Assembly (NCBI RefSeq): GCF_002929805.1
Contig: NZ_PJJM01000098.1
Span: 30,841-94,840, forward strand
Direction: 5' to 3'
From: Cryobacterium sp. Y50
Lineage (GTDB): Bacteria; Actinomycetota; Actinomycetes; Actinomycetales; Microbacteriaceae
DNA: 64,000 nucleotides
Positions within the stretch are counted from its first letter, which is position 1. Each line of letters begins with the position of its first letter. Position numbers and translations under genes: made by a program. The notes beneath the pieces were generated by a model. It made no database searches. It was not told where the DNA came from and worked only from the letters and a program-made list of their open reading frames with translations. Shown piece by piece: positions 49,310-59,047 of this stretch.

Positions 49310-50071
49310 ATGACTGACACGGCCAGCATCCCCACCCATAGCAGCCCAGTGAACGCCACTGCCATCGTTAAGAAACGTCGGGTTCTGCTGAAACTATCCG
49401 GTGAGGCCTTCGGCGGTGGTGCCGTTGGAGTCAACCCGGATGTCGTCAGTTCGCTGGCGCGTGAAATCGCTGAGGGTGCCAAGCAGGTCGAGGTCGCCAT
49501 CGTGGTCGGCGGTGGTAACTTCTTCCGCGGCGCCGAGCTCTCCCAACGCGGCATGGACCGCGGGCGCGCCGACTATATGGGCATGCTCGGCACCGTCATG
49601 AACGCCTTGGCTCTGCAGGACTTCCTGGAACAGGCCGGCGCTGAAACCCGAGTGCAATCTGCCATCTCGATGACCCAAGTCGCTGAGCAGTACATTCCGC
49701 GACGCGCGGAGCGTCACCTCGAGAAGGGCCGCGTCGTCATCTTCGGTGCCGGCGCGGGCCTGCCGTACTTCTCCACCGACACCGTCGCGGCCCAACGAGC
49801 CCTCGAAATCGATGCCGACGTTGTGCTCGTCGCCAAGAACGGCGTCGATGGCGTCTACTCCGACGACCCGCGCACCAACCCCGATGCGCAGAAGATTCAC
49901 CACATCACTTACCTCGACGCGCTCCAGCGCGGCCTCAAGGTGGTCGACTCCACCGCCTTCAGCCTGTGCATGGACAACCATATGCCAATGCAGGTCTTCG
50001 GCATGGCCCCGGAAGGCAACGTTACCGCAGCCATCCTGGGCACCGATCTGGGCACTCGCGTCTCCAACTAG
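49310..50071 (+). CDS. pyrH: UMP kinase
   Basis: A 253-residue amino-acid-kinase-fold enzyme phosphorylating UMP. Motifs: [53 protein letters not shown] and [20 protein letters not shown]. About 20 non-conserved residues precede the domain; a start nearer the domain is possible. It heads pyrH-frr-cdsA. Confidence 0.96.
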
Positions 50072-50665: not shown

Positions 50666-51679
50666 ATGAACGACAAACCCGGGAACGACCAGCCGCACAA
50701 GCGCGGTCACGGTGTTAGTCGTGCCGAGTTTCGGGCGCAGGTGAAGACGACGCGGGCCGATTTTGAACGCCAGGTGCAAACCACCAAGGCTGATTTCGAG
50801 CGGCAGGTGCAGGCGACGCGTGCCCAGCTCGATGCCACCAACGAACGCATCGAAGCACGCACCGGGCGCAACCTTATTCTCGCGATCCTGATCGGGCTCG
50901 TGCTCGGCGGTGCGATGCTGGTCAGCCTCATCATCATCAAGCAACTATTCATGATCTTTGCGGTCGTGATCGTCGCTTTCTGTGCCTTCGAACTGGCCCA
51001 GGCGCTGCGACATGCCGGACACAATGTTCCGCGCATCCCGGTCATCATCTCTGCCGTCGCGATCGTCCCGGCCGCGTTCTACGGCGAGGCGATTGGCCAG
51101 TGGCTCGTGATGCTCGGCGGGATCGGGCTGATTGCCCTGTGGCGGCTGGCGCTTCTCGTGATACCGTCACATCGAGCCCCGGTCCGGTCCATTGTCGGCG
51201 ACGTGGGTGGCGGCATTCTGATTCAGGTGTACGTCGTGTTCCTGGCGAGCTTCGCGGTGCTGCTCGTCGCCCAGCCCGAAGGGCAGTGGTGGGCACTCGC
51301 TTTCCTGATCCTGGTTATTTCCGCCGACACCGGGGCCTACGTCAGCGGGCTCAATTTTGGCAAGCATCCGATGGCACCCTCGATCAGTCCCAAGAAGACC
51401 TGGGAAGGCTTTATCGGTGCCGGTCTGATCTGCATGATCGCCGGCGTTCTGTTGTCCATCTTCATGCTGGATCAGGAGTGGTGGTTCGGGCTGGTCTTCG
51501 GCGTCGTGATTCTGCTCGCTGCGACGTTCGGCGATCTGGCCGAATCGCTGATCAAACGCGACCTCGGTATCAAGGACATGAGTTCCTGGCTGCCGGGGCA
51601 CGGCGGTTTTCTGGACCGGCTGGACTCAATCCTGCCGTCGGCCGCCGCCGCCTACGCCCTTTACCTGGTCTTTGCGTAA
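50666..51679 (+). CDS. cdsA: Phosphatidate cytidylyltransferase with coiled N terminus
   Basis: A 337-residue membrane enzyme making CDP-diacylglycerol. The family signature near the C terminus reads FGDLAESLIKRDLGIKDMSS followed by WLPGHGGFLDRLDS, and KKTWEGFIGA precedes it. Eight or more helices are predicted. The first about 65 residues are cytosolic and contain three 11-residue repeats (QVKTTRADFER, QVQTTKADFER, QVQATRAQLDA), a short hendecad coiled coil not required for catalysis. Start at 50666 follows the frr stop by nine bases. Confidence 0.93.
   Translation: MNDKPGNDQPHKRGHGVSRAEFRAQVKTTRADFERQVQTTKADFERQVQATRAQLDATNERIEARTGRNLILAILIGLVLGGAMLVSLIIIKQLFMIFAVVIVAFCAFELAQALRHAGHNVPRIPVIISAVAIVPAAFYGEAIGQWLVMLGGIGLIALWRLALLVIPSHRAPVRSIVGDVGGGILIQVYVVFLASFAVLLVAQPEGQWWALAFLILVISADTGAYVSGLNFGKHPMAPSISPKKTWEGFIGAGLICMIAGVLLSIFMLDQEWWFGLVFGVVILLAATFGDLAESLIKRDLGIKDMSSWLPGHGGFLDRLDSILPSAAAAYALYLVFA
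50738..50836 (+). repeat. Three 33-bp hendecad repeats in cdsA
   Basis: Codons 25-57 encode three consecutive 11-residue units of pattern QVx(T/A)T(R/K)A(D/Q)(F/L)(E/D)x. DNA identity between units is clear but not exact. Confidence 0.8.
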
Positions 51680-51726: not shown

Positions 51727-52458
51727 ATGAGCACCATATTTCCCCGAGTGGGCAAGAAGACTCTCGGCTACAACCTGAGCCAGGTCGATACCTTCCTGGC
51801 CGCGGCCCGACGCGCGTACGATCGGCCCGACCTGACCGACGATGAAGCGGATGCCGATACCGGGGTCGTTGAATCCGGCTTCGAATCCGTGGACGAGATC
51901 GCTGCCCGCAGTCGCGCTGACCACCACGAGAGCCCGGTATCGGGCACGGTGTTGAACGGTACAGAAGCCATCCACGCCATCGTCACGGCCAAGGCCGCCG
52001 CGGAAGCGGACCGCGCCGGCGCGACCTTGACGGCCGAAGCAATTCGACACACCGCCTTCGCCATGCACAAGGGCGGATACTCTCCGGAACATGTCGACGC
52101 GGCTCTAGAGCGACTCGAGGACGCCTTCGCAGCCCGGGAACGCGATCACGCCACGCGCACCGGCGGAGAGCATGCGTGGCTGGTCGATGCCGAGAAGGCC
52201 GCCACCGTACTTGTCGCCCGCCTCAGCCGTGCGCCCGGGCACCGATTCACCCGTACCAGTGTGCTCGCGGTCGGCTACAAACGGGTCGATGTCGACCGGT
52301 TTGCGAACAAACTGGTGAAGTATTTTCAACACGGTCGTGAGCTCACCGTCGACGAAGTGCGAACCTCTGTTTTTCGCCCTGAACGGGGCGGATACCGCGA
52401 AGCCCAGGTTGACCTGGTGCTCGACAGCGTCGTCGACGTGATGCTGGCGGTACGTTGA
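51727..52458 (+). CDS. DivIVA-domain repeat protein
   Basis: A 243-residue cytosolic protein with several copies of the short DivI1A-type motif: GYNLSQVDTFL near residue 15, GGYSPEHVDAALERLEDAF near 125, GYKRVDVDRFANKLVKYF near 180, and GGYREAQVDLVLDSVVDV at the end. In DivIVA a single such motif binds curved membrane. Here it is repeated without a long coiled coil. It starts 47 bp after cdsA. It may act in polar growth or cell division; that is inference from the motif. Confidence 0.8.
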   Translation: MSTIFPRVGKKTLGYNLSQVDTFLAAARRAYDRPDLTDDEADADTGVVESGFESVDEIAARSRADHHESPVSGTVLNGTEAIHAIVTAKAAAEADRAGATLTAEAIRHTAFAMHKGGYSPEHVDAALERLEDAFAARERDHATRTGGEHAWLVDAEKAATVLVARLSRAPGHRFTRTSVLAVGYKRVDVDRFANKLVKYFQHGRELTVDEVRTSVFRPERGGYREAQVDLVLDSVVDVMLAVR

Positions 52459-54304: not shown

Positions 54305-55354
54305 CTAGAGCTCGTTTTGGCGGGGGATGACGACCTGCTTGACAATCATGATGACCGACGCGGCAACAGGGATGGCGATCAGCGCGCCGAGAATGCCGAG
54401 CAGGCTGCCGCCAGCCAGGGCCGCGATCACCACGACAGCGCCCGGCACTGACACGGCCCGGTTCATGATGTTCGGGCTGAGCACGTATGCCTCCACCTGC
54501 ATATAGATGAGGTAGTAGATCGCCGCGACCAGAGCAGTCTGCGGCGAGCTGCCGATCTCTGGAATCAGGCAGGTCAGCACGATGATGACCGAGCCCGAAA
54601 TGGTACCGATGAGCGGAATGAGCGAGAGCAGAAAGGCGATGAAGGCGAGCAACGCCGGAAACGGTGCGCCGATGATAGAGAGAAAAATAAAGCTCAAGAC
54701 GCCATTGACCGAGGCGAGTGCGGCCTGGCCCACGATGTAGCGGCCGACTGCCGTGGTGATCTGCTCGCTGATATCGGTGAAACGCTCCCGCTTCGACGCG
54801 GGAACCAGCTGGTAGGTGGCGCGCTTCATGCTGTTTAGTGAGGCCGTGAAGTACAGCGTGAGAATGAGAATGATGAGAGCGCCGAACAGGCCACCGACAA
54901 ACGCGAGACCCGACTGAACTACCGTCGTCGTGATGTTGGTGAGGTTGCCGCCCAGAAAATTGGTCACGGTCTTGGTGATCTCCGTGACGTCGAAGCCGGG
55001 AAACTGCTTCTGGAGATCAATGAGATAAGTCGAACTATTCACCGCTTTGACCAGTTCGGGGATGAGGTTGGACAGCTTGGTAACCTGGTCAACGATGATC
55101 GGAGCAATCGCGAAGACGACGCCGGTGAGCACACCGAGCACAGCGGCGACCACGGTCAGAATCGCGGCCCAGCGAGGAAACCGTTTCTTCTCCAACCAGG
55201 AGACGGCCGGATCGAGACCGAGCGCGATGAACAGCGCGGCTCCCACGTAGATGATGATCGTCTGCAGCGTGATTACCGAGGTGATGATCAAAAGGCCGAG
55301 GCCTACGCCCAGGGTGCCGACGAGTCCGAACCGAAACGCATTCTGAATTTTCAC
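54305..55354 (-). CDS. AI-2E family transporter
   Basis: A 349-residue membrane protein of the AI-2 exporter/PerM family, with about eight hydrophobic segments. Typical blocks are YVGAALFIALGLDPAVSWLE, LPLIGTISGSVIIVL (seen as LIPLIGTISGSVI) and YVLSPNIMNRAVSVPGAVVV. Members export small molecules or act as Na+(Li+)/H+ antiporters; the substrate here is not evident. It follows the coiled-coil gene by 23 bp on the same strand. Confidence 0.9.
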   Translation of the reverse strand: MKIQNAFRFGLVGTLGVGLGLLIITSVITLQTIIIYVGAALFIALGLDPAVSWLEKKRFPRWAAILTVVAAVLGVLTGVVFAIAPIIVDQVTKLSNLIPELVKAVNSSTYLIDLQKQFPGFDVTEITKTVTNFLGGNLTNITTTVVQSGLAFVGGLFGALIILILTLYFTASLNSMKRATYQLVPASKRERFTDISEQITTAVGRYIVGQAALASVNGVLSFIFLSIIGAPFPALLAFIAFLLSLIPLIGTISGSVIIVLTCLIPEIGSSPQTALVAAIYYLIYMQVEAYVLSPNIMNRAVSVPGAVVVIAALAGGSLLGILGALIAIPVAASVIMIVKQVVIPRQNEL

Positions 55355-55377: not shown

Positions 55378-56985
55378 TTACTCGGCTGCGACCCGCTCTG
55401 CCTGGGTCAAAACGCTGCGCAGGCTTTCAAAGTACCCCGCCACAGCGTCGCGCTCAATTCTAATCTGCGCCATGCGATCTTCGGCGTCAGCGACCAGAGC
55501 CCGCGACCGTGTCGTAGCGTTCTCGACGAGGGCCGAAGCGCTGGTCTGGGCGTCGTGCAGAATGCGGGCGGCAGTCTCATCGGCGAGGTCCTTATTCGCC
55601 TTGGCCTCGGCGCGGGCTCCCGTGTCCAGCTGCTCGTTGAGCGCACGCAGTTCGAGCGTGCGCTCGGTGGTTTCGGCGAGCTGCCTGGCGGCATCCGTTT
55701 GGAATTTCTGCGCCAGCGCCACCGCTCCCTGGTGAAGGGTGAGGTGCTCCTGCTCTGCCTCGTCGCGGCGGGCTTTCAACTCGACATCGAAGTCGGCTCG
55801 GACCTGGTCAATTTCTCGGGCCAGTTGGGCTGCCTCGTGCTGGCCGGTCGTGAGCGTGGCAGCGAGCTCGGTTTGCAGGTCGATGCGCGCCTGCTCGGCC
55901 TCGGCCTCGGCCTCGAGGCGGGCTTGCTGGTTGTCCCGGGTCAGGTCGGCGCCGGCCTGTTCCACCTCGGCGGCGAGGGTGGCGCGTGCCTGCTCGATCT
56001 CGCGATCGGCCGTGGCGCGTTTGCGCTCGAGATCGCGGGCGAGATCGGTCTGCGCCTGCTCGCTCTCGATCTCGGCGACTGCGCGTGCCTGCTCGATCTC
56101 GCGGGCCACGTCGATGCGGCCCTGTTCCACCTCGGCGGCGAGCAGGGTGCGCGCCTGCTCGGCCTCGTGGGCGCGGCTCAGGCGGGCTTCTTCCGTGTCG
56201 CGCGCGAGATCCACGCGAGCCTGGTCGGTTTCGGCAGCCAGCGTCACGCGAGCCTGGTCCGTCTCCTGCTTCAGGGTCGCGCGCTGCTGGTCGAGTTCCA
56301 GTGCTACTTCGGCGCGAATGAGTTCTGTTTCGCGCGTCAGGCCGGCCGCTTCTTCGCGAGCCTCGGTGGCTTCACGCTGCGCGACGACGCGCACCTCGGC
56401 GGCTTCGCGATCCGCTTCAGAACGGATGGCTGACACCTCGCGTTTCACCGTGGCCCGGGCCTCGGCCGCCTCGGTGGCGACGGTCCCGCGAATCAGCGAA
56501 GCGTCCCGGGCAGCGTCCTGTATGACCAGCGACTGCTCGTCCTGGGTGCGTGCGCGCAAGTCATCCGTTTCAACGCGAGCATCGTCGAGCAGTCGCCGTG
56601 CTTTGACGGCGGCGTCGGAAAGGGTTCGTTCGGCCTGCTCAGTGGAAGTCCGTCGCAGCTGCTCGACCTCGTCGCTGGTCGTGGCGCGCAGTTTCTCAGC
56701 GTCGATATCGGCCTGGGCGATCACACGGGTGGACTGTTCCTCGGCGACGCGCAGGGTGTTTTCCAGCTTCGTGCCCAGACCGGAGAACGTGGGACTGCCG
56801 ACCTCTTCGATCTCTGCGGTGAGGTCATCGATGTGCGCGGCCAATCGTTTGACCTCGCGGCTGGCCTGAGCATTTTGGGTATTGGCCTGGATGAGTTGCC
56901 GGCGCAGGGATTGGACCGCCTTGGCGACCTCATCTTTGTCATAGCCGCGAAATACCTGGGTGAAATCGGCGTCGTCGTCAGACAC
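55378..56985 (-). CDS. Long hendecad coiled-coil protein with DivIVA-like N terminus
   Basis: A 535-residue protein that is almost entirely helical. Residues 8-30 (FTQVFRGYDKDEVAKAVQSL) look like a DivIVA-type membrane/pole-binding motif. Residues 230-372 consist of 13 uninterrupted 11-residue repeats with consensus (E/D)x(E/Q)QARxxLAx; the coil continues to the end with less regular spacing. Scy and FilP of Streptomyces are polar cytoskeletal proteins built on hendecads, and this is a plausible Microbacteriaceae counterpart. There is no signal peptide or cysteine. It is divergent from a membrane-protein gene. Confidence 0.85.
   Translation of the reverse strand: MSDDDADFTQVFRGYDKDEVAKAVQSLRRQLIQANTQNAQASREVKRLAAHIDDLTAEIEEVGSPTFSGLGTKLENTLRVAEEQSTRVIAQADIDAEKLRATTSDEVEQLRRTSTEQAERTLSDAAVKARRLLDDARVETDDLRARTQDEQSLVIQDAARDASLIRGTVATEAAEARATVKREVSAIRSEADREAAEVRVVAQREATEAREEAAGLTRETELIRAEVALELDQQRATLKQETDQARVTLAAETDQARVDLARDTEEARLSRAHEAEQARTLLAAEVEQGRIDVAREIEQARAVAEIESEQAQTDLARDLERKRATADREIEQARATLAAEVEQAGADLTRDNQQARLEAEAEAEQARIDLQTELAATLTTGQHEAAQLAREIDQVRADFDVELKARRDEAEQEHLTLHQGAVALAQKFQTDAARQLAETTERTLELRALNEQLDTGARAEAKANKDLADETAARILHDAQTSASALVENATTRSRALVADAEDRMAQIRIERDAVAGYFESLRSVLTQAERVAAE
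55870..56298 (-). repeat. Thirteen 33-bp hendecad repeats
   Basis: Codons 230-372 of the coiled-coil gene. Unit examples are ETDQARVTLAA, EAEQARTLLAA and EIEQARATLAA. Register is kept without a single insertion over 143 residues, although the DNA units have diverged. Confidence 0.9.
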
Positions 56986-57229: not shown

Positions 57230-59047
57230 GTGCGTTTTGTTCTAGCCATCGTGGCATTCGTTCTCGCCGCCGTGATGATCGTGCTCGGCATCGCGCAGCG
57301 CACAATTCTGCTTGAACCGGCCTTCACTTCACTGAGCTCGACGGCCGCCGGCGAGACTTTGTACACAGTGATCGACCCGGGCGCCCTCGCGGCCTCCCCG
57401 GGGAGCCAGACAATCAACGTGCGCGGCGAGGGAACCATCTTTCTGGCCTACGGTCGCTCCGAAGACGTGGCCGCCTGGATCGGCGATGACGCCTACTCCA
57501 CGGTGGCGCTGAGTGAGAAAACGGGCGAACTGACCTCCACAGTCACGGCTGCCGTCGAACCCGACACGGACGTCGACAGCTCGGACGAACCGGCTGCAGC
57601 GGATGCTGTCGAGCCCCTGATCGTCAGTCCGGCCGGTTCCGACCTGTGGCTCGAGGAGATCAGTGACACGGATTCGTTGACGACCACGCAGACCCTCCCG
57701 GAGGGCATTTCGGTGCTCGTTGCTTCGGACGGAATCGAACCGGCGCCGGCGAGCATCCGTTTGTCGTGGGCGTCGGATAATTCCACACCGTGGGCCGGCC
57801 CACTGCTCGCCGGCGGCGCACTGCTGCTGCTGTTCGGACTCGTGTCGTACCTGCTGGCTCTGCTGCACCTGCGCCGGTCACGGCGACCGCGCCGCAACGT
57901 TCCGCGCGGACCACGCCTGCCGCGCGCCCCCCGACCGAAAGCCATCAAGGCCAGTCAGATCACCTCGCCGCGCCGCGGTATTGCCCGCCGCATAGCAATC
58001 CTGCCGATGATCCTGGTGTCCGGTCTCGCCCTGAGCGGATGCTCGGCCGACCTCTGGCCCGATTTCAGCGCGACGACGATGGAAACGGCGACCCCGACCC
58101 CGACTCCGGTGTCCACCGACTCGGTCGAAGCGGCCGCCGAGCTGGCACCGCCGGCCGTCACGGTCTCCCAGCTTGAGATCATCATGGGCGAGATTTCGCT
58201 CCTGACGGCGGATGCCGACGCGACCCTCAACGCGGACACTCTTGCGACCCGCTTCACCGGCCCCGCGCTGGAACAGCGCCTGGCCAACTATGCGATACGG
58301 GCAGTCGACGCGACGGTGCCGCCACTGCTGGCGTTGCCGGGAGCCCCACTCACCTTCACGCTGCCTCAGCAGACGAATTCCTGGCCGCGAGTGGTGATGA
58401 CTGTGATTCAGAACGAAACGGATGCCGAGATTCCACCAACCGCAATTATTCTGCAGCAAGAATCGCCGCGGGCGAACTATCTCATCGAGTATGCCTTCCA
58501 GCTTGAACCCGCTGCGCGGGTACCCGAAGTTGCTCCGGCTCTGATCGGGGCGCCGGCGATCGCCCCCGACAACAAACTTCTGCTGTTGCCGCCGAACGAA
58601 CTGGCCGCGGTCTACGCCGATGTGCTCCTGCGGGGCGCTGCGAGCCCGTCCGTCGGCTTGTTCGAAGACGAAGTGGATGCCTTCCGTGCCCAGTTTGACG
58701 CCAGCCGCGCCGACCGGCAGGCAGCCCTGCCCACCACCGCATCGATCGAATTCGGCACGGCGGCGGGGGACGGCGGCACCATCGCCCTGGCCACCAACGA
58801 CTCCGGCAGCATCGTGGCGGTCAGCGTCAACGAGACCGAGATCGTCAAACCGATCAACGACGGTGCCACGGTCAGCCCGAGCGGGGCTGCCAGCAAGGCG
58901 CTGTCGGGAATCTCATCGTCGGCCAAGGGTATTCTCAACACCTACAGTGACCAGCTGTTGTTCTACGTGCCGACGGCCGGATCGAGCGACAAAATCATCC
59001 TCCTGGGCTTTGCCCAAGGCCTCACCAAATCTGCGGAGCTTCCATGA
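57230..59047 (+). CDS. Membrane protein with internal lipobox, unknown function
   Basis: A 605-residue protein. Segment 4-22 is a transmembrane helix or anchor; 23-187 would be outside; 188-213 is a second helix; 214-255 is strongly Arg-rich (cytosolic). Then ARRIAILPMILVSGLALSGC (Cys271) looks exactly like a lipoprotein signal peptide inside the chain. The C-terminal about 330 residues are exported by topology. I do not recognise a functional domain. GTG start with AAGGG upstream. Its stop overlaps the thioredoxin-like gene (ATGA), so the two are co-expressed. Confidence 0.8.
   Translation: MRFVLAIVAFVLAAVMIVLGIAQRTILLEPAFTSLSSTAAGETLYTVIDPGALAASPGSQTINVRGEGTIFLAYGRSEDVAAWIGDDAYSTVALSEKTGELTSTVTAAVEPDTDVDSSDEPAAADAVEPLIVSPAGSDLWLEEISDTDSLTTTQTLPEGISVLVASDGIEPAPASIRLSWASDNSTPWAGPLLAGGALLLLFGLVSYLLALLHLRRSRRPRRNVPRGPRLPRAPRPKAIKASQITSPRRGIARRIAILPMILVSGLALSGCSADLWPDFSATTMETATPTPTPVSTDSVEAAAELAPPAVTVSQLEIIMGEISLLTADADATLNADTLATRFTGPALEQRLANYAIRAVDATVPPLLALPGAPLTFTLPQQTNSWPRVVMTVIQNETDAEIPPTAIILQQESPRANYLIEYAFQLEPAARVPEVAPALIGAPAIAPDNKLLLLPPNELAAVYADVLLRGAASPSVGLFEDEVDAFRAQFDASRADRQAALPTTASIEFGTAAGDGGTIALATNDSGSIVAVSVNETEIVKPINDGATVSPSGAASKALSGISSSAKGILNTYSDQLLFYVPTAGSSDKIILLGFAQGLTKSAELP

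Follow-up and report, generated by a model that had tools for sequence, protein, structure and literature searches.

A FilP-type coiled-coil protein of Cryobacterium with fixed ends and a rod whose length appears to change in steps of eleven residues

The window, which here means the whole stretch of 64,000 nucleotides that was analysed, comes from the cold-living actinobacterium Cryobacterium sp. Y50 and carries on its reverse strand a gene for a long coiled-coil protein. The features of this gene, and of two neighbours to which we refer below, are the following.

55378 to 56985 (stop codon included), reverse strand: filP-type gene, 535 amino acids, GTG start (list of open reading frames and relatives).
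56926 to 56964, reverse strand: DivIVA-like motif, residues 8-20, FTQVFRGYDKDEV (aligned orthologues, TIGR03544 and PDB profile matches).
56773 to 56799, reverse strand: conserved helix break GSPTFSGLG, residues 63-71, followed by TKLENTLRVAEEQ (alignment and AlphaFold2).
56356 to 56754, reverse strand: first hendecad-periodic stretch, residues 78-210 (lag-11 identity).
55864 to 56292, reverse strand: 13 in-register hendecads, residues 232-374, within the variable spacer (lag-11 identity and orthologue lengths).
55405 to 55797, reverse strand: conserved C-terminal rod end, residues 397-527, with DVELKARRDEAE and RIERDAVAGYFESLR (alignment of 22 orthologues).
54305 to 55354, reverse strand: AI-2E family permease gene (PF01594, E 5e-56).
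51727 to 52458, forward strand: PolyDIV-type DivIVA-repeat protein, a neighbour outside the rod (TIGR03543).

The permease gene lies downstream of the filP-type gene, 23 bases away in the window, and the two probably form one operon. We fetched 40 loci from the family, most of them representing separate genera and all chosen for their relatively strong matches, and in 36 of them the permease gene is likewise next downstream on the same strand, at a gap of 7-104 bases. All 40 carry frr-cdsA-polyDIV-LT-sm101 on one flank and duf605-trx/TPR on the other, with abh in 39 and glgB in 37; the neighbours supported by Pfam are S2, EF-Ts, RRF, CdsA, AI-2E, Trx/TPR and GlgB, while "abh", "LT", "sm101" and "duf605" are working labels of this analysis. 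The preliminary description had suspected a local set of pole-associated proteins here. The gene set is indeed conserved, but a large share of its genes serve housekeeping functions (those for ribosomal protein S2, EF-Ts, ribosome recycling factor, CdsA and GlgB), so the neighbourhood alone is not evidence of a polar module. The DivIVA-repeat protein at 51727 matches TIGR03543 (E 6.2e-58, 195.9 bits, cut-off 154.2) and fits the published PolyDIV group, for which a UMP kinase gene near most clusters has been reported (PMC9858780); in the window a Pfam AA_kinase of UMP-kinase type, for which "pyrH" is our own naming, lies near it at 49310. The CdsA gene (50666-51679) has several hendecad-like units (RADFERQVQTT) in an N-terminal extension, and CdsA in the other fetched family loci has extensions of varying length, mostly ending like ATNERIEARTGRNL. 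Between filP and trx/TPR lies a divergent gene of 605 residues (57230-59047), which has no Pfam match and is conserved in all 40 fetched loci.

At its N-terminus the window protein reads FRGYDKDEVA, close to the consensus RGYxKDEVDKA of 37 aligned orthologues, in which F8, R13, G14, Y15 and V20 are invariant; the DivIVA-like motif noticed earlier is therefore real. A DivIVA-like domain has been defined by RGYDxxEVD ahead of a dimeric coil (PMC9858780). The final D of this signature is A in the window protein, and it is A or T in three of five other Cryobacterium proteins among the matches listed. TIGR03544 scored 18.6 bits (E 0.0011) against the whole window protein, under its cut-off of 22, and 22.3 bits against the gene in a genome scan. 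A profile of the 37 orthologues matched GpsB/DivIVA chains of the PDB, the best four at E 2.2e-5 to 3.1e-5; Foldseek with the N-terminal model returned no DivIVA-like structure, its single match having E 6.7. AlphaFold2 predicted helices at residues 17-62 and 72-534 with a break at 63-71, at a mean pLDDT of 80.3 and a pTM of only 0.42 for the full-length model. The break coincides with the conserved block, in which G63, P65 and G69 are invariant among the 37 orthologues, and at the far end of the rod E402, R504, E511, R512, A516 and Y518 are invariant among 22. By sequence and model, the window protein has a DivIVA-like N-terminus, then a coil and then an alanine-rich hendecad rod.

The preliminary description had centred on 13 hendecads in perfect register, and this was borne out. 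Residues 232-374, cut at residue 232, form 13 consecutive 11-residue units with zero slip, in which Q fills position b and R position d in 11 units each, A fills position c in 10, and all 13 have E or D at position j. Over residues 78-374 the identity at lag 11 is 0.325, far above two null sets of 2000 shuffles each: composition shuffles peaked at 0.201 across lags 2-44, and those preserving the hydrophobic/polar pattern peaked at 0.238 for lag 11. Because residues 78-210 are likewise 11-residue periodic, the hendecad stretch is longer than first stated. The spacing between the two blocks is compatible with the unit (154 residues, or 14 units); their hydrophobic phase profiles disagree, correlating best at an offset of 3 or 7 rather than 0, and so we do not claim a single register throughout residues 78-374. 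A 51-residue pattern is also known in FilP and Scy. A stricter automatic run finder gave a longest run of 8.7 units in the window protein (maximum 4.09 in 500 shuffles) and reached 25.7, 31.0 and 33.8 units in orthologues, so a run of this length, thought rare at first, is not rare within the family. No 33-base tandem array was found at the DNA level in the window gene; its register therefore does not come from recent duplication, and we rejected a recently duplicated DNA array as its source in this species.

Relatives of the protein were found in 246 of 299 Microbacteriaceae genomes by protein search and in 243 of 299 with an HMM of the N-terminus; the N-terminal profile also matched 137 of 296 genomes drawn from the class and 161 of 248 from the order. 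The nearest named relative among the matches listed is from C. levicorallinum, at 95% identity. The window genome has one FilP-type gene and no second such gene, and three of its genes pass the DivIVA-domain cut-off: DivIVA itself (L031, 54.8 bits), the PolyDIV gene and the filP-type gene. Several genera (g3, g8, g12, g18, g34 and others) have zero matches among the matches listed, and in these FilP may have been lost or become very divergent. Two loci of another genus of Microbacteriaceae, g85 (L125 and L126), hold a weak, divergent DivIVA-like long coil, with no window neighbour inside the fetched 19 kb. Of the 20 loci that come from other genomes, 14 have one or more window neighbours; L120 has the most (abh, duf605, glgB, sm101 and trx/TPR), the streptomycete-like L108-L110 share sm101 alone, and L111, L112, L121 and L125-L127 have none in common. 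The permease gene is also downstream of filP on the same strand in L118, L119, L123 and L124, which belong to other families.

In the streptomycete-like genomes (family f25), the N-terminal HMM gave one match per genome (E 9.5e-11 to 1.0e-8), in open frames mostly of 318-416 residues. At L108 the profile selects a 312-residue protein at 38.1 bits (38.1-40.5 bits for FilP of L108-L110). The 1244-residue protein encoded directly upstream is Scy, with 2018 bits for NF041483 against a cut-off of 1040, and is absent from the N-terminal HMM matches at E < 0.05. Given this identity of the upstream gene, we took the adjoining 312-residue protein as FilP, at FilP's expected place. Scy outscores FilP both with a profile of the C-terminal end (50-67 versus 31-35 bits, the latter with a bias of 68-70) and with one of the N-terminal 215 residues (134-149 versus 71-77 bits), and composition bias in these rod profiles amounts to 384-459 bits for Scy and 64-70 for FilP. 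Since rod profiles favour Scy under such heavy bias, only the first 80 residues separate FilP from Scy. At a threshold of E 1e-5, BLAST with the whole window protein failed to recover FilP of L108-L110.

Like FilP of Streptomyces, the window protein has the RGYDxxEV/QV motif, a GLG block with LxxAEE (reading PSYAGLGARVEKILRLAEEEA in streptomycete-like FilP), a long coiled coil and a conserved C-terminal RRDSI/RDAV block (counterparts AKRREQSE and RRDSINAQLTNVR), in addition to the N-terminal profile match. It differs in the spacer between its anchors, 443 residues against 198 in the streptomycete-like loci, in the absence of a separate Scy gene from its genome and in the AI-2E permease gene beside it. 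The resemblance to the Scy/FilP polarisome that had been proposed thus holds as group kinship of the FilP type and fails for Scy. NF041483 did not match the window protein at E 0.001 or at 0.01 and matched only 3 of 22 aligned relatives (best E 1.6e-6), and no second gene stands beside filP; we rejected a Scy identity, although the rod profiles nonetheless favour Scy. Scy shares the long hendecad rod, within one superfamily, but is described as beginning immediately before RGYD (PMC9858780), where the window protein has 12 residues first. In the same source the FilP/Scy group spans under 200 to over 1000 residues, with Micrococcales among its members, and the FilP rod is proposed to have grown by hendecads, Scy being derived later from FilP in streptomycetes (PMC9858780). 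If Scy arose in this way, the window gene is strictly the counterpart of both, and its N-terminus is FilP-like.

Other known proteins fit less well. DivIVA/Wag31 and GpsB share the N-terminal motif and the coil after it, but the window genome has its own DivIVA, and the rod of the window protein is far longer and made of hendecads; the DivIVA/Wag31 model NF050102 (cut-off 260 bits) did not match the window protein at E 0.01, while matching 20 of 22 aligned family members (best E 2.9e-14). PolyDIV proteins (TIGR03543) also have a DivIVA-like motif but are reported to hold 2-8 copies of the domain (PMC9858780), and the window gene has one DivI1A match where two or more define the group. RsmP of Corynebacterium glutamicum can be likened by description, as an intermediate-filament-like coiled-coil protein of a rod-shaped actinobacterium (PMC3296230). 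Coil matches to apolipoprotein, FliH, flagellin, haemagglutinin and others were under cut-off or at E >= 0.014 and were discarded, and we rejected a phage origin, with no match among 50,697 phage records. On these comparisons the window protein is a FilP-type scaffold, a known kind of protein, and not a new polarity factor.

FilP is a known coiled-coil protein of actinobacteria (PMC9858780, PMC4255298). The earlier remark that scaffolds of this kind have seldom been described beyond Streptomyces does not stand for the family as a whole, as FilP orthologues are reported to be very widespread, simple actinobacteria included (PMC4255298), and a FilP cluster has been reported from Micrococcales (PMC9858780). 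FilP from this family may already be present in Fig. 9 of the survey in PMC4255298, whose genomes include three Microbacteriaceae (Clavibacter, Leifsonia and Microbacterium). Our literature search, outside which most subscription journals lie, turned up no article dedicated to FilP of Microbacteriaceae, nor one that deals with eleven-residue steps in rod length.

The spacer was measured between two anchors, an invariant GLG close to the N-terminus and, towards the C-terminus, a conserved R[DE]xV; 188 of 201 loci were measured with these common anchors, and 13 were not measurable. The N-terminal end is fixed, with a GY-to-GLG distance of 55 in 118 of 118 family loci. Spacer lengths overall run from 198 to 1069 residues, or 18 to 97 hendecad lengths, and the 118 measured Microbacteriaceae loci alone have 50 distinct lengths between 355 and 1008 residues. 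Modulo 11, however varied in length, these spacers fall in class 7 (74 loci) or class 3 (43), two classes that cover 117 of 118. The sole exception, L073, has a spacer of 497 and falls in class 2. In eight other families all 52 measured loci have a spacer exactly divisible by 11 (f26 21, including two second copies from already counted genomes, f53 9, f23 6, f8 5, f47 4, f25 3, f58 3 and f35 1), the streptomycete-like value being 198 = 18 x 11. Family f50 has class 10 in 11 of 18 loci, class 2 in 6 and class 0 in 1, and L123 and L124, measured by a looser pattern, have spacers of 275 = 25 x 11. The classes may be expressed as some number of whole hendecads with 1, 2, 3 or 5 heptads added, which is a reading and not a test, because every class allows such a decomposition.

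Changes in length follow the same rule. On a FastTree phylogeny built from the fixed ends of 115 orthologues, parsimony gave at least 60 length changes and only 3 changes of class modulo 11, compared with 42-55 class changes for moduli 5-10, 12 and 13 on the same tree. Comparing successive lengths inside each genus gave 34 differences, of which 33 are divisible by 11 and one is 7. Of 80 named records, which overlap with the other sampled genomes, 78 were measured and every one is in class 3 or 7. The preliminary description had suggested looking for a conserved repeat number; the spacer is a constant 443 in the 25 closest Cryobacterium records, and also in 27 of 27 Agromyces records, but varies across the family. 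Metagenome bins labelled Cryobacterium have spacers of 414 (L318, 46% identity) and 436 (L320, 45%). As a control we took 13 neighbouring genes, in which 297 net length differences other than zero occur, many of them small; 14 of the 297 are divisible by 11. The same local-alignment measure gave 7 of 30 for filP itself because its alignments are partial and mix classes, and the rule therefore rests on the anchors. Pairwise alignments also contain a few gaps of other sizes that sum to multiples of 11 (for example 59+29 and 28+16). An earlier anchor pair, used before the common anchors, placed first 46 of 48 and then 113 of 114 loci in two classes. With a simple regular expression the C-terminal flank could be measured in 67 of 115 orthologues and came to 116 residues for 59 of them, 75 for 7 and 160 for 1; we did not rely on this pattern, as the values 75 and 160 are probably from wrong anchors. 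By these comparisons, rod length has evolved almost only by whole eleven-residue steps. The analysis shows membership of the FilP family by sequence, and with it the domain plan, the fixed ends and the length rule.

Taken together, these results make it quite probable that the gene is the FilP-type gene of Cryobacterium, encoding a scaffold of polar filaments or mesh with fixed ends and a hendecad spacer. From analogy with its relatives we infer dimerisation, filament assembly, DivIVA binding, a polar position and a mechanical role. The protein would most likely be a parallel coiled-coil dimer. Residues 1-62 would form a DivIVA-like dimer domain, set off by the conserved break at 63-71, and residues 72-534 a single long, nearly straight helix, mainly of alanine-rich hendecads and with the conserved block at its end; at 0.15 nm for each of 463 helical residues, a dimer would then measure about 69 nm. 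The two fixed ends may bear binding surfaces, with the middle serving as spacer. By analogy with Streptomyces FilP, a 37-nm rod with a 60-nm repeat (PMC6599971), such dimers could join end-to-end and side-by-side, building filaments or a mesh close to the growing pole, where DivIVA/Wag31 might recruit the assembly and the cell would be stiffened. The spacer would gain or lose whole hendecads because other steps would alter the phase between the conserved ends.

We further infer that selection, beyond mutation, keeps the length rule, and that length may set the spacing of the assembly, a longer spacer lengthening its repeat. A stronger form of this idea, which we put forward tentatively and regard as possible but doubtful, is that FilP is an evolvable molecular ruler: the number of hendecads would set the repeat of the polar mesh, and selection would forbid net steps other than 11, or rarely 7, preserving rotational phase from end to end. 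If so, one gene offers a natural series of rods of about 30 to about 160 nm between anchors, and the 60-nm FilP repeat should vary with unit number between species. The window protein itself would fill in FilP for Cryobacterium. The length rule may matter beyond it: intermediate-filament-like rods that share their ends and span 18 to 97 hendecad lengths between the anchors make it possible to test directly whether the spacing of filaments and the stiffness of the pole are set by the length of the subunit.

The eleven-residue steps might also be the mere footprint of slippage or recombination in 33-base tandem repeats, with rod length functionally meaningless, an explanation that we consider rather unlikely. 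Repeats are certainly at hand. Some tandem array occurs in 105 of 115 orthologue coding sequences, with 462 array rows of a period divisible by 33. In 12 close pairs, 13 inserted rod units had a best copy within the same gene at 60-91% of bases identical, a multiple of 11 residues away in 12 of 13. Because 33-base arrays are present and inserted units resemble units of their own gene, tandem duplication appears to supply whole units. Slippage alone, however, does not account for the failure of other-sized net changes, which are common in neighbouring genes, to build up in filP. The window gene keeps register without any 33-base array, and families f26, f23 and f25, which were sampled for protein spacing, have short, nearly constant spacers that are yet 0 mod 11. 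We think that both processes act, duplication offering 33-base steps and selection, as we see it, removing those that would change phase.

A second alternative, that the protein makes a general lengthwise cytoskeletal filament like RsmP of Corynebacterium and is not specific to the pole, seems unlikely to us. Filaments of RsmP are described as running along the cell, with a phosphomimetic mutant found only at the poles (PMC3296230), and Streptomyces FilP is reported to occupy a subapical place, short of the tip itself (PMC6599971). Recruitment by polar DivIVA is instead favoured by the DivIVA-like domain at the N-terminus and by the kinship to FilP. Least probable, and in our judgement quite improbable, is that a FilP-type protein has grown into a Scy-like polar scaffold in a family that has no separate Scy gene, for although the gene adjoining filP in streptomycete-like L108 encodes the long Scy rod, the window genome has no second such gene, proteins of the family reach about 1100 residues in some genera and rod profiles score Scy over FilP (with strong bias), the Scy model leaves the window protein and 19 of the 22 aligned relatives unmatched and the Cryobacterium spacer is moderate in length. 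A polar FilP-type scaffold is thus the reading that we prefer.

Scy has been described as confined to streptomycetes (PMC9858780), and Scy orthologues adjoining filP have been reported outside them (PMC4255298). Among the loci of our sample, the second RGY-type genes of L122 and L123 are under the Scy cut-off. In these two loci and in L124, the second gene adjoins filP and encodes a longer coiled coil, in frames of 625, 734 and 722 residues for L122, L123 and L124.
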